Assembly (NCBI RefSeq): GCF_015461805.1
Contig: NZ_JACVZE010000008.1
Span: 1 to 64,000 of the forward strand
From: Pseudomonas pisciculturae
Lineage (GTDB): Bacteria; Pseudomonadota; Gammaproteobacteria; Pseudomonadales; Pseudomonadaceae
Reading direction: 5' to 3'
Length of the DNA stretch: 64,000 nucleotides
Shown in pieces: positions 36,582 to 41,285 of the stretch. Each line of letters starts with the position of its first letter. Position 1 is the stretch's first letter. A program made the position numbers and the translations under genes. The notes beneath the pieces are model-generated. The model was not told the origin of the DNA and searched no databases. It saw nothing but the letters and a program-made list of their open reading frames with translations.

Positions 36582-39242
36582 TCACACCGCTACGGGGTCG
36601 ACCTTGTCGACGTTGATCCCGTAGCGTGTGATCGCCTCACTGACTTTGTCGCGGCCTATTACGCCGTCATCCGCTAGCGCCTTCAAGGCCGCCAGAGCGA
36701 TGAAATAGCGGTCCACCTCGAAGAACGCCCTTAAGGTCTCCCGCGTATCCGATTGCCCGAAACCATCGGTGCCGAGCGCGACAAAGCGCCGGCCTGGTAC
36801 GAATGGGCGGATCTGATCGGCGAATAACTTCATGTAATCCGTCGCGACGACCACCGGCCCGGTGTGCCTGGCCAGGCACTGCTCCACATAACTTACACGC
36901 GGCGCGTGCTCGGGGTGCAGCAGGTTCCAGCGTTCTACGGCATGCCCATCGCGGCGCAATTCGGTGAGGCTGGTTGCGCTCCACACCGTGCTGCGCACGG
37001 CGAAATCGTTTTCCAGCAGCTCAGCGGCGGCGATCACTTCCCGCAGGATCGAGCCGCTGCCCATCAGTTGCACCTGCGCCTGATCGCTTGTGCTCAGTGG
37101 GTACATGCCTTTGATAATCCCATCTTCCACGCCGTCGGGCATGGCCGGATGCGGGTAGTTTTCGTTGAGCAGGGTGATGTAGTAATAAATGTCCTCCTGC
37201 TCGACATACATCCGGCGCATGCCCTCGCGAATAATCACCGCCAACTCGTAGGCAAAGGTCGGGTCGTAGGACACGCAGCACGGAATCACCGACGAGAGGA
37301 TATGGCTGTGCCCGTCGTCGTGTTGCAGGCCTTCGCCCATCAGCGTGGTGCGCCCGGCCGTGGCACCCAGCAGGAAGCCGCGGGCCCTTGCATCGCCCGC
37401 CGCCCAGGCCAGGTCGCCGACGCGCTGGAAGCCGAACATCGAATAGAAAATATAGAACGGTACGGTCATCAGACCGTGGTTGCTGTAGGACGTACTCGCC
37501 GCAATCCAAGAGGAAATGGCGCCGGATTCATTCAGGCCTTCCTGCATGATCTGCCCGTCTTTGCTCTCTTTGTAGTAGCTCAGTTGCCCGGCGTCCTGTG
37601 GGGTATAGAGCTGGCCAACGGCGGAGTGGATACCGATCTGACGGAACAGGCTTTCCATGCCGAAGGTGCGCGATTCGTCTGGCACGATGGGTACGATCAG
37701 CTTGCCCAGGTGCGGGTCTTTTAGCAGGGTGCCGAGGATGCGCACGAAGGCCATGGTGGTGGATATCGCGCGTTCGCCGGTGTCCTTGAGCTGGGTGCTG
37801 AAGGCTGACAGTTCGGGAATTTGCAGCGACTGCACGGCGCTATGGCGAGCGGGTACATAGCCCCCCAAAGCCTGACGGCGCGCCGCGAAATAGCGGGCTT
37901 CTTCGCTGTCGGCGGCGGGCTTGATGTAGGGGATTTCGGCGAGTTGCTCGTCAGCTACTTCCAGACCGAAACGGTCACGAAAGGCTTTGATGGCGTCGGC
38001 GCCCATCTTCTTCAACTGGTGATTGATGTTTTGGCCTTCGCCAGCATCCCCCATGCCAAAGCCCTTGACGGTCTTTGCCAGGATCACCGTCGGTTGGCCG
38101 GTGTGGCGCACAGCGGCGGCGTAAGCGTTGTAGACCTTGTCGGGGTCATGCCCGCCTCGTGAGAGTTTCCAGATTTCGTCGTCGGACATGTCTGCCACCA
38201 GTGCGAGCAGCTCGGGGTACTTGCCGAAGAAATGTTCGCGCACATAGGCGCCGTTCTGGGATTTGTAGTTCTGATACTCACCGTCCACGCACTCCATCAT
38301 GCGTTGGCGCAGCAGGCCGCTCTTGTCTTTGTCCAACAGCGCATCCCAGCCGCCACCCCAGATCACCTTGATCACGTTCCAGCCGGCGGCGCGGTAGAGG
38401 CTTTCGAACTCCTGGATCACCTTGCCGTTGCCACGTACCGGGCCGTCCAGGCGTTGCAGGTTGCAGTTGACCACGAAGATCAGGTTGTCGAGTTTTTCGC
38501 GACCGGCCAGGGAAATGGCGGCCAGGGATTCCGGTTGGTCCATTTCGCCATCACCGAGGAACGCCCAGACTTTGCGGCCCTGATGTTGCTTGAGGTCGCG
38601 AAACTCCAGGTAACGCATGAAGCGCGCCTGGTACGCGGCGGTGATCGGGCCCAGGCCCATGGATACCGTAGGAAACTGCCAGAAGTCGGGCATCAACCGT
38701 GGGTGCGGGTAGGAAGAAATACCCTCGCCACCGGCTTCGCGCCGGAAGTTGTCGAGCTGCGCTTCGCTGATGCGCCCCTCTAGGTAGGCGCGACCGTAGA
38801 TGCCTGGGGAGGAGTGGCCTTGGATATACACCAAGTCGCCGTCGAAGCTGTCGGTACGCCCACGGAAGAAATGGTCGAAGCCTACGTCGTACAGTACGGC
38901 GGCTGACGCATAGGTGGCGATATGCCCACCTACACCGGAGTGTTTGCCTGCGCGCAGCACCATGGCCATGGCGTTCCAGCGAATGTACGCATTGGTGCGG
39001 CGCTCAATCGCCAGGTCTCCGGGGTAGGGCAGTTGGCGGTCCACCGCAATGGTGTTGACGTAGGGGGTGGTGACCCGCCCGTAGAAGTCGCCATGGCGCG
39101 CAACGTCGAAATCAAGCAACTGGTCGATCAGGTAGTGGGCGCGCGGGCGACCTTCGGTGTGCAGCACCGATTCGATGGACTCCAGCCACTCGCGGGTTTC
39201 CTGCGGATCGTCGTCGCGTCTGATTGCGTTATTCGGGGGCAT
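36582..39242 (-). CDS. Homodimeric 2-oxoacid dehydrogenase E1 (AceE/MdeB-like), solitary
   Basis: The 886-residue enzyme has the full length of the AceE-type pyruvate dehydrogenase E1. The thiamine diphosphate motif is GDGEMDQPESLAAISLAGREKLDNLIFVVNCNLQ, and the E1 signatures GHIATYASAAVLYDVGFDHFFRG and TDGFGQSDTRETLRAFFEVD are present. It decarboxylates a 2-oxoacid and passes the acyl group to an E2 lipoyl protein. No aceF or lpd gene is adjacent, so this is a second, accessory E1 and probably not the housekeeping AceE. MdeB of P. putida (2-oxobutyrate, methionine breakdown) is one comparable solitary E1. It is divergent from a MarR gene over a shared palindrome. Confidence 0.88.
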   Translation of the reverse strand: MPPNNAIRRDDDPQETREWLESIESVLHTEGRPRAHYLIDQLLDFDVARHGDFYGRVTTPYVNTIAVDRQLPYPGDLAIERRTNAYIRWNAMAMVLRAGKHSGVGGHIATYASAAVLYDVGFDHFFRGRTDSFDGDLVYIQGHSSPGIYGRAYLEGRISEAQLDNFRREAGGEGISSYPHPRLMPDFWQFPTVSMGLGPITAAYQARFMRYLEFRDLKQHQGRKVWAFLGDGEMDQPESLAAISLAGREKLDNLIFVVNCNLQRLDGPVRGNGKVIQEFESLYRAAGWNVIKVIWGGGWDALLDKDKSGLLRQRMMECVDGEYQNYKSQNGAYVREHFFGKYPELLALVADMSDDEIWKLSRGGHDPDKVYNAYAAAVRHTGQPTVILAKTVKGFGMGDAGEGQNINHQLKKMGADAIKAFRDRFGLEVADEQLAEIPYIKPAADSEEARYFAARRQALGGYVPARHSAVQSLQIPELSAFSTQLKDTGERAISTTMAFVRILGTLLKDPHLGKLIVPIVPDESRTFGMESLFRQIGIHSAVGQLYTPQDAGQLSYYKESKDGQIMQEGLNESGAISSWIAASTSYSNHGLMTVPFYIFYSMFGFQRVGDLAWAAGDARARGFLLGATAGRTTLMGEGLQHDDGHSHILSSVIPCCVSYDPTFAYELAVIIREGMRRMYVEQEDIYYYITLLNENYPHPAMPDGVEDGIIKGMYPLSTSDQAQVQLMGSGSILREVIAAAELLENDFAVRSTVWSATSLTELRRDGHAVERWNLLHPEHAPRVSYVEQCLARHTGPVVVATDYMKLFADQIRPFVPGRRFVALGTDGFGQSDTRETLRAFFEVDRYFIALAALKALADDGVIGRDKVSEAITRYGINVDKVDPVAV

Positions 39243-39306
39243 GTGAGGCTCCAGGGTAGGCGGATTTCAAGTGGCGGGTTCCTTGTGGGAATGCCGTCAA
39301 AGTAAT

Positions 39307-39318
39307 TGCAATTGCAAC
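39307..39318. promoter_or_regulatory. MarR-type operator between E1 and marR genes
   Basis: TTGCAATTGCAA is a perfect palindrome centred 70 bases from both start codons. The same core recurs as an 18-base palindrome before the orphan E1-like gene (41023-41040). A half-site ATTGCAAC lies at about 39353. Confidence 0.7.
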
Positions 39319-39387
39319 TACAAGGTCGAATCTAGCGCGGGATGAGCTACTATTGCAACCTTCTTGAAATTCCCCGGATGGTGTTGC

Positions 39388-39858
39388 ATGTCGTCGAAAG
39401 AGCCTGATGTATGGTTCCGTTTTGTCAGGGCCCACAGGACGGTCATCCGCGAAATCGAACGGCGCCTGGCTGAAGCGGGCTTGCCGCCCTATGCCTGGTA
39501 CGACGCATTGTGGGGTTTGGAAAGCGGGCCAGAGGGCACGCGCCGCATGCACGAATTGGCCGATGTGCTGGCTATTGAGCGCTACAACCTCACACGCCTG
39601 GTAGACCGCTTGGAAAAGGATGGTCTGGTGGTGCGCTCCCGGTCCGAAGGCGATGGTCGTGGAGCATCCGCTTCGATCACAGACACTGGCCGGGTGCTGC
39701 GTAAAAAGATGTGGAAGATTTACGAAAGCACGGTAGATGAGTTGTTTTTGTCGCAAATCGAGCCCGAGCAGCGCCAGGGGTTTGCCGATGCGTTGGAGCG
39801 CACGGCGGGGATGGCCATGGAGGCGGGTGTGCAGACCCGTGGGCGCCGCAAAACCTGA
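39388..39858 (+). CDS. MarR-family transcriptional regulator
   Basis: The 156-residue protein has a MarR winged helix (RRMHELADVLAIERYNLTRLVDRLEKDGLVVRSRSEGDGRGASASITDTG, residues about 55-105) between helical dimerisation arms. ATG 39388 begins MSSKEPDVWFRF. It is divergent from the E1 gene, with the TTGCAATTGCAA palindrome midway. MarR proteins typically repress a divergent gene and themselves and are released by a small acid. The ligand is unknown. Confidence 0.9.
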   Translation: MSSKEPDVWFRFVRAHRTVIREIERRLAEAGLPPYAWYDALWGLESGPEGTRRMHELADVLAIERYNLTRLVDRLEKDGLVVRSRSEGDGRGASASITDTGRVLRKKMWKIYESTVDELFLSQIEPEQRQGFADALERTAGMAMEAGVQTRGRRKT

Positions 39859-39875
39859 AGAGCTGTGGAGATCCG

Positions 39876-39966
39876 ATGTGGGAGCGGGCTTGCTCGCGAA
39901 AGCGGTGGTTCAGTTGAAGCATCTGTGAATGACACACCGTATTCGCGAGCAAGCCCGCTCCCACAT
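39876..39966. repeat. REPIN, CGCGAA subtype
   Basis: ATGTGGGAGCGGGCTTGCTC (39876) is mirrored by GAGCAAGCCCGCTCCCACAT (to 39966). It lies between the convergent marR and orphan E1-like genes. Confidence 0.9.
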
Positions 39967-39984
39967 GTTTGATAGCATTCCAAT

Positions 39985-40971
39985 TCATGGCAGTGGGTAG
40001 CGGGCCATCGCTGTTTCCAATTGCTGTAAACCAATACGCCCTTCATCCACCAACGCGCGCAACGCCGCCACCACAATCCAATACCGACTCGGCGCAGCCC
40101 CCAACGCGACAAACCTGGCATCCATGTACCCGCCCAGTTGATCGACAATCGGCTGCGGATAGCCGGTGATAGCAATCACGGGCGCTTCACTCCCTTCCAG
40201 GCAATCACGCAAATGGCAGCCACGCTTGGGCTCGGTGGGATGCAGGCGATTCCAGCGCTCAGCGGCCGCCGCCTCGCGAGCCAGTCGCGTATAGCTGGGG
40301 CAACTCCATACCTGCGACTTCACATTCCAGTCCTGTTCCAGCAGCCACGCCGCTTGAAGGACTTCCTCCAACGCCTGGCCCGCGCCTAGCAATCGGATAT
40401 CGGCTGCGCGTTCACCCTGGATCAGGTACATGCCCTTGAGCGCGCCGTCGCGGTCTTGCTCCGCCAGTGGCATTGCGCGCTCATGATCATGCAGCGCCAG
40501 GTAGTAAAAGCCCGGCTGGCCGTCCACATACAAGCTGCGCAACCCGGCCAGCACAATCGCCCGGGCTTCCTCGCCGCAGGCCGGGTCGTACGGTGTGCAG
40601 CGTGGGTTGGTCGCCAGCCAAAGTGGCAAAGAGGGCTGCGTGCCTTTGGGCCAGCGGGAGGGGTGGTTCTCGATGTCGTTGCACAGGATGCCACGCTGCG
40701 CCGTGGCGTCCGACAGCGCGCACAACTGCGCCGAAGACGCCGCACTGTGCAAGTACAGCATGGGTTTTTCCGCGGTGTTGCGGGCGAACCAGGTAGGCCA
40801 GCGGCCCAGGCGTTGGTTGCGCGACTGGCTGCGAATCACCCACGCCTGCCGGCTGGATTCAAGGGTATTGGCTATGTTCATCACGGTGTACAGCGGCGAG
40901 CTGCGGGAATGTTCGGCAGCGCTCAACGCATCAAGGCACAGCTGTGCGGCGTGGGCGGTGGAGGCGGGCAT
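39985..40971 (-). CDS. Orphan protein matching the C-terminal half of E1 (transketolase-like)
   Basis: The 328-residue protein aligns by eye with the last third of the neighbouring E1. For example CTPYDPACGEEARAIVLAGL matches CVSYDPTFAYELAVIIREG, GALKGMYLIQGERAADIRLL matches GIIKGMYPLSTSDQAQVQL, and AAERWNRLHPTEPKRGCHLR matches AVERWNLLHPEHAPRVSYVE. It lacks the N-terminal thiamine-diphosphate domain and the GTDGFGxSD loop. It therefore cannot be an E1 alone and may bind or modulate the full E1. The frame is intact, and an 18-base MarR-type palindrome lies 52 bases upstream. It begins MPASTAHAAQLCLDALSAAE. Confidence 0.75.
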   Translation of the reverse strand: MPASTAHAAQLCLDALSAAEHSRSSPLYTVMNIANTLESSRQAWVIRSQSRNQRLGRWPTWFARNTAEKPMLYLHSAASSAQLCALSDATAQRGILCNDIENHPSRWPKGTQPSLPLWLATNPRCTPYDPACGEEARAIVLAGLRSLYVDGQPGFYYLALHDHERAMPLAEQDRDGALKGMYLIQGERAADIRLLGAGQALEEVLQAAWLLEQDWNVKSQVWSCPSYTRLAREAAAAERWNRLHPTEPKRGCHLRDCLEGSEAPVIAITGYPQPIVDQLGGYMDARFVALGAAPSRYWIVVAALRALVDEGRIGLQQLETAMARYPLP

Positions 40972-41022
40972 GGGTTGAGTCCCCTGATAACGAATGCCCT
41001 AACCCTAAAGGAAAAGTGTATG

Positions 41023-41040
41023 TGATTGCAATTGCAATCA
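41023..41040. promoter_or_regulatory. 18-base palindrome, candidate MarR operator of the orphan E1-like gene
   Basis: TGATTGCAATTGCAATCA is perfect and contains the TTGCAATTGCAA core also found at 39307. On the minus strand it fills the space between a TTGATT-like -35 and TACACT (about 41017-41022), where a bound repressor would block RNA polymerase. Confidence 0.7.
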
Positions 41041-41198
41041 AATTCGAAATCCAAGATGCTAAATTGCCACAACGCTGCTACGTTTAATTCTGGAGTGCAG
41101 GAACGTCATGGCGCAGACATTTTTTCGTCACAACGGCACTTTAGGCTGGTGATGCAGGTCACTTATTTGCATCCGCTTTTTTCAAGAAGGAGTCCACG

Positions 41199-41285
41199 AT
41201 GGACGATTACCAGGAAGAGTTGCTCGAGTACCACGCGATTGAGTTGGACCCGTTGGAACCGGCAGACGACGCAACAGAGTTGTAA
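41199..41285 (+). CDS. 28-residue acidic micro-protein
   Basis: The frame reads MDDYQEELLEYHAIELDPLE then PADDATEL and stop. A strong ribosome site, AAGGAG, lies 8 bases before ATG 41199. The peptide is very acidic (11 Asp/Glu) with one short helix-like stretch. It stands alone between the orphan E1-like gene and the convergent AraC gene. I do not recognise a function; the ribosome site is the main evidence that it is real. Confidence 0.6.
   Translation: MDDYQEELLEYHAIELDPLEPADDATEL

Follow-up and report, generated by a model that had tools for sequence, protein, structure and literature searches.

The stretch of DNA analysed here, referred to below as the window, comprises 64,000 nucleotides of contig NZ_JACVZE010000008.1 of Pseudomonas pisciculturae and carries a small gene cassette built around a second pyruvate dehydrogenase (PDH) E1 enzyme, E1-II. 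Beside it lie marR, encoding a regulator whose MarR domain (PF12802, MarR_2) scores 51.3 bits against a cut-off of 27, and the gene for a truncated E1 paralogue, the half-E1 (Table 1). The initial annotation of the window had recognized these three genes from the sequence, and all are open frames at the positions that it gave. It had also reported the 18-base palindrome TGATTGCAATTGCAATCA before half-E1, which is present at 41023–41040 and contains TTGCAATTGCAA at 41026–41037, and a further copy of TTGCAATTGCAA between E1-II and marR; the latter exists as well, its coordinates being 39306–39317 and not 39307–39318.

Table 1. Coordinates of the genes and sequence features of the cassette in the window
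Feature	Position	Strand	Basis
E1-II, second homodimeric pyruvate dehydrogenase E1, 886 aa	36582..39242	-	Open frame; TIGR00759 match
Palindrome 1, TTGCAATTGCAA, putative MarR operator in the E1-II/marR intergenic region	39306..39317	.	Motif search; kept in relatives
marR, winged-helix regulator, 156 aa, without cysteine	39388..39858	+	MarR_2 match
half-E1, 328 aa, shrunken PYR domain and E1 C-terminal domain, without PP domain and without Glu571/His640 equivalents	39985..40971	-	Pfam, fold comparison
TAGGGT, -10-like hexamer, 18 bp from the inner half-site TTGCAA	41002..41007	-	Pattern match only
Palindrome 2, TGATTGCAATTGCAATCA, putative MarR operator before half-E1	41023..41040	.	Motif search; kept in relatives

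A complete and a truncated E1 enzyme

E1-II matches the model TIGR00759 over its full length (1425 bits; cut-off 859.9), scores under the cut-off of TIGR03186 and is 62% identical to the housekeeping-type E1 of the same genome, which is encoded on another contig (C14), where the open frame behind it looks like aceF on inspection by eye. In common with the homodimeric PDH E1 family (AceE; E. coli structure 1l8a), it is a full-length enzyme: all residues checked (H106, H142, Y177, D230, N258, N260, K392, E401, H407, E522, E571, Y599 and H640), which we take to be catalytic or involved with thiamine diphosphate (ThDP), are kept in 51 of 51 aligned E1-II sequences. It departs from that family in its fixed changes around the active site and in having no E2 and E3 partner genes. 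When these 51 sequences were compared with AceE of E. coli and of 12 Pseudomonas, 116 positions proved to be fixed differently (at least 95% in both sets), including E235Q, K403Q, A406N and 572S (each in 51/51) and Y394F and I569L (each in 50/51). These six changes lie in or near what is presumably the active site with its loop. The cassette shows no E2 or E3 gene, and inspection of the 34–44.5 kb open frames revealed no E2 gene, in line with the initial annotation. E1-II would presumably dock on AceF.

In half-E1, Pfam recognizes the transketolase C-terminal domain alone, and the match to TIGR00759 reaches 135 bits against the cut-off of 859.9. An AlphaFold2 model based on an alignment of 43 sequences (pLDDT 87.2, pTM 0.88) aligns over its full length with residues 468–877 of E. 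coli E1 (Z 31.4–31.7 over 317–319 residues, root-mean-square deviation 2.6–2.7, five entries), and by this comparison its fold is that of a shrunken PYR domain followed by the E1 C-terminal domain. It differs from the homodimeric enzyme by the absence of the PP domain, of the catalytic segment with Glu571 and of the GTDGFGxSD loop; two loops are lost, and Pro113 stands at the position of His640. The protein had been described as the last third of an E1 without the ThDP domain and the loop, which is right as to the losses and wrong as to the extent, a shrunken PYR domain being kept besides the C-terminal domain. Judged from sequence and model, half-E1 is a catalytically dead paralogue that cannot serve as an E1 alone. 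A similar combination of PYR and C-terminal half on a gene of its own is found in the beta subunit of a split-gene transketolase (6yaj), which aligns with the half-E1 model with a Z of 21.4. In that transketolase a second subunit supplies the missing half and the enzyme works; half-E1, in contrast, has lost the catalytic residues, and no gene for a PP-only partner was seen.

Half-E1 is under purifying selection, its median omega being 0.149 compared with 0.060 for E1-II and 0.095 for MarR (28 pairs from 8 genomes). At this value a pseudogene decaying under relaxed selection, considered in the initial annotation, is not the rule. In a 57-row tree built on the C-terminal region common to all, the half-E1 sequences (20 rows, support 100/100) and the E1-II sequences (16 rows, support 100/99) each formed one group, and both groups included sequences from Burkholderiaceae. 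The possibility that half-E1 is a fresh copy of the neighbouring E1 was ruled out, as joining both groups was rejected by the approximately unbiased test (p 0.0027); the half-E1 branches are long, which makes the exact placement of this group unsure. A third kind of full-length E1, present in several Pseudomonas genomes (L171–L177), formed a group of its own (100/100) in the tree.

Joint inheritance of the cassette and its palindrome

The cassette was surveyed in 398 genomes of the genus Pseudomonas. Half-E1, searched with the C-terminal matches of full-length E1s set aside, was detected in 69 of them and is unbroken in 66 (copies in two pieces counted as broken), the damaged copies being those of G154 (stop), G361 and G414 (frame breaks). 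E1-II is separated from other E1s by a clean gap (at least 77% identity, next best 63%) and was found near full length in 76 genomes among the matches listed, a number that excludes broken copies such as that of G414. On this basis, 66 genomes carry both genes, three half-E1 only, ten E1-II only and 319 neither, so that the two genes are strongly co-inherited, in agreement with the association that the initial annotation had proposed to look for.

All ten genomes with E1-II only keep marR and the palindrome with at most one mismatch; remnants of half-E1 are found in three of them (G145, G220 and G336) and none at the locus in the seven others. Among those with half-E1 only, both genes are broken in G414, E1-II of G289 lacks its middle part, and G080, in which no E1-II was found, is a poor assembly (86% complete, AceE also split) whose broken frames are possibly errors. 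Since E1-II occurs without half-E1 in 10 of 76 genomes, half-E1 is accessory: E1-II and marR form the core, and half-E1 is their usual companion. At the G414 locus (L120), frame breaks in both E1-II and half-E1 accompany a marR gene and two palindromes that look intact, a joint decay of the two genes.

The exact 12-mer TTGCAATTGCAA occurs at two places only in the whole genome (6,223,697 bases in 20 contigs), namely in palindromes 1 and 2, and sites with at most one mismatch at 14 places versus four for a reversed control. Within the 64-kb window, the motif with at most two mismatches is not enriched (5 found, 4.11 expected). Its conservation was followed at 53 half-E1 loci, 36 from Pseudomonas (the window included) and 17 from Burkholderiaceae, with duplicates and damaged or residual copies (L120, L122, L131) set aside; for Burkholderiaceae the upstream region was counted from the first matched half-E1 residue. 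At 51 of the 53 loci the 250 bp upstream of half-E1 contain a palindrome with no more than one mismatch (0.125 expected from shuffles), and at 29 an exact one (0.01 expected), the two exceptions, L049 and L055, having a palindrome with two mismatches. As the loci are related, these 51 palindromes represent conservation and not 51 independent events. Presence of the palindrome in relatives, another expectation of the initial annotation, was thus confirmed. In four genomes the cassette is split, half-E1 lying about 159 kb (G159), 365 kb (G165) or 1.7 Mb (G931) from marR and E1-II, or on another contig (G880), and in all four both pieces retain the palindrome with at most one mismatch.

Before half-E1, TTGCAA and TAGGGT are arranged like a -35 and a -10 element, and a TA-x-x-x-T hexamer is found by pattern match at the same 18-bp spacing from the inner half-site at 20 of the 53 loci. 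With this arrangement, a bound repressor would sit on the half-E1 promoter. MarR would act from both palindromes, which are conserved at the places expected of its operators. The proposal that one palindrome governs two genes together with marR holds as regards the shared conserved site and fails as regards the restriction to two genes: in many relatives a glutathione-S-transferase (GST) gene, transcribed divergently from half-E1, shares the site. There is no GST gene beside the cassette copy of the window.

The cassette is present in two bacterial orders. A tblastn search of plasmid records revealed in Burkholderia arboris the order GST, operator, half-E1, marR, operators, E1-II, and half-E1 was found in 19 of 249 Burkholderiaceae genomes. 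The surroundings were inspected in 16 of these 19, the whole cassette with GST occurring in the B. arboris order at 14 of the 16 loci and being split in two. In the phylum-level sample of 299 genomes, the only full-length half-E1 copies were those of two Pseudomonas already known as carriers.

Three smaller features of the window adjoin these genes. An inverted repeat between marR and half-E1 (39871–39969) looks REP-like by eye; mir-590, matched there at 37.4 bits against a gathering score of 65, was the sole Rfam match over 36–43 kb and was taken as spurious. Upstream of palindrome 2 (window 41040–41200; also L038–L041, L051, L053 and L054), a stretch appears to be conserved across species, for example around CCTGC and CAGCCTAAAGTGCCGT. 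In the window it is followed by an open frame of 28 aa (41199–41285).

Association with an azomycin operon

At five loci, the cassette (reduced to half-E1 and marR at two of them) adjoins a LuxR gene and a five-gene operon. The order of this operon, the same in 16 contiguous loci, is aminotransferase-like, DUF6190, DHDPS-like, Haem_oxygenas_2 and Rieske. The best PDB matches of its first enzyme are 6c3a, which we take to be RohP, and then the arginine hydroxylase MppP, and its haem-oxygenase-like enzyme is closest to 9pfw and PbrRohS among solved structures. A vinylglycine (gvg) cluster, considered for L049 and L055, was dropped as the enzymes matched MppP/6c3a and PbrRohS. In Pseudomonas, the main text of PMC12713392 places the rohPQRST operon for azomycin (2-nitroimidazole) next to luxRI. 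By its sequence, and as far as the accessible text of the two sources describes that system (PMC10724926, PMC12713392), the operon beside the cassette in relatives is of the rohPQRST type: its five genes agree with that system in kind and order and adjoin LuxR/LuxI genes; the P and S types were identified by structure-database matches, and the Q, R and T types were assigned by gene order.

An orthologue of rohP (at least 63% identity; five rohP-like matches of 29–35% were left out of the count) is present in 20 of the 398 Pseudomonas genomes and broken in G080 and G172. Half-E1 and E1-II occur together in 18 of these 20 roh genomes versus 48 of the 378 others (p 1.5e-13, an overstated value as related genomes are treated as independent). 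The cassette is contiguous with the roh operon in 16 of the 20, with GST in 13 of those 16. In the remaining four, half-E1 and marR alone stand beside roh (G080), roh is on another contig (G267), the two are far apart (G226), or there is no cassette (G343). At least two arrangements exist, with roh beyond the half-E1 side or beyond E1-II (L047, L150); the flank of the roh operon away from luxRI is called variable in the main text of PMC12713392. The adjacency of the cassette and the azomycin operon suggests protection from that kind of poison.

Two side observations concern these genomes. The operons of G226 (L157) and G343 (L159) are of a variant type, their RohP-type enzyme being 64–66% identical to that of L055; a different GST-like gene lies near roh, and neither LuxR nor LuxI was matched there. 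In both roh genomes without E1-II, G343 (L224) and G080 (L225), AceE has T109 and not S109, a residue shared by 44 of 51 E1-II. A roh-linked change at this position was rejected and T109 left as a lineage signal: it also occurs in G235 (L169) and G001 (L261), both without a rohP match, and G001 shares two further changes with G080.

The genome of the window itself has no rohP orthologue. The complete form of the cassette comprises E1-II, marR, half-E1 and GST, and the copy in the window persists without the azomycin pathway or GST.

Function of the cassette

We tentatively favour, with a probability of about 0.45, the reading that the locus is the stand-alone form of a protection cassette that MarR switches and that is directed against azomycin or related compounds. 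E1-II would replace the ordinary E1 as a less sensitive enzyme, and half-E1 would act as a dead partner subunit. MarR would repress from the palindrome and be released upon the arrival of a nitroheterocycle such as azomycin, or upon harm from one. E1-II would then load on the ordinary AceF/Lpd core and sustain pyruvate oxidation while AceE is poisoned, and GST would quench reactive reduction products. Half-E1 might bind E1 chains via its kept PYR/C-terminal face and help to exchange or shield them; this is the weakest step of the proposal.

Antibiotic operons accompanied by a duplicate of the target enzyme are a known form of self-resistance. The cassette resembles this form in that a spare housekeeping enzyme with changes near the active site stands beside a biosynthetic operon in 16 of 20 roh genomes, the genome of the window not being one of them. 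It differs in that the copied enzyme is a PDH E1 and is accompanied by its own MarR switch, a GST and a dead half-paralogue, and in its wide occurrence without the operon. Our search of the accessible literature gave, among the papers listed, no report of a PDH E1 copy, a half-paralogue or a MarR/GST set linked to azomycin, nor of E1-based self-resistance. The initial annotation had likewise known of no described system of this shape, and none was found in that search. A term search of the main text of PMC12713392 gave no aceE, MarR, glutathione or pyruvate, and the cassette does not come up in that text; its accessible sections do not deal with the self-protection of azomycin makers.

Several observations weigh against protection from azomycin. 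No palindrome was seen near the roh genes at the examined loci. The genome of the window has no match to rohP at E 1e-40, 58 of the 76 E1-II genomes (among the matches listed) lack a rohP orthologue, and no rohP-like gene was found in 18 of the 19 Burkholderiaceae genomes with half-E1, the nineteenth having one at 35%. Conversely, roh is found without an adjacent cassette in G343 (none in the genome) and G226 (elsewhere), and at L055 and in G080 it stands with half-E1 and marR and no E1-II alongside. GST is missing from 3 of the 16 contiguous loci as well as from the window. Finally, the introduction of PMC12713392 ascribes nitroimidazole toxicity to reduction and DNA damage, not to PDH, and calls the mode of action of azomycin non-specific.

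A bolder form of the protection reading, which we consider doubtful, is that PDH E1 would be a main target of azomycin-type nitroimidazoles in aerobes. Producers and bystanders would swap in E1-II, and half-E1 would pair with poisoned or spare E1 chains for their removal or shielding, a pseudoenzyme-assisted target swap. The ThDP-bound intermediate of PDH E1 would perhaps reduce, or be trapped by, the nitro or nitroso group. Nitro and nitroso compounds can possibly react with ThDP enzymes.

Another explanation, also rather unlikely, is that E1-II serves as an alternative dehydrogenase, acting on a different 2-oxo acid or in a different growth state. A metabolite would switch it through MarR, half-E1 would tune it, and its closeness to roh would be due to hitch-hiking of accessory genes. 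This explanation would accommodate the majority of carriers, which lack roh, and the 116 fixed differences from AceE, some near the active site. E1-type enzymes with other substrates are known as well, the mdeB/TIGR03186 type of plasmid annotations being one. However, E1-II lies far over the aceE cut-off and under that of TIGR03186 and is not accompanied by E2 or E3 genes. The GST in the cassette also speaks against this explanation, as does the direct adjacency to roh, found in 16 of 20 roh genomes with at least two arrangements.

We find it improbable that the cassette is a MarR regulon unconnected with any toxin, in which mixed dimers of half-E1 and E1-II set the activity or stability of the latter. 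Such dimers would be consistent with the shared operator, the co-conservation and the dimer-type fold conserved in half-E1; yet E1-II, marR and the operator persist without half-E1 in the ten E1-II-only genomes noted above, half-E1 persists without an adjoining E1-II in G080 and L055, and GST and roh are left unaccounted for. A working part in azomycin biosynthesis, or in its supply of pyruvate or reducing power, is very unlikely. Contiguity with roh would fit such a role, as would the release of pyruvate that may be expected from the retro-aldolase step of the pathway (accessible text of PMC10724926), but according to the same text RohPQRS alone reconstitutes the pathway in vitro, most carriers have no roh, and G343 has roh without a cassette. 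That half-E1 is a functionless fragment in decay is hardly credible: its broken copies and remnants, its absence from the locus in seven further E1-II genomes and its faster evolution than E1-II are outweighed by its integrity in 66 of 69 Pseudomonas carriers, its omega, its single clade across two orders and the operator that it retains even after relocation from E1-II.

In the accessible part of PMC9239090, dehydrophos (methyl acetylphosphonate) is the sole natural product among known E1 inhibitors. It resembles the proposed poison as a natural product able to disable PDH E1 and differs in its chemistry, its producer and the lack of any tie to the cassette; a second natural inhibitor of E1 would therefore be news. 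Linkage of a spare, conserved PDH E1 to the azomycin operon raises the question of whether AceE is a target. Should the protection reading be true, the dead but conserved half of a central enzyme would acquire a task, the cassette would represent a transferable protection module present in two bacterial orders, and it would offer a handle for genome mining of further natural products acting on E1.

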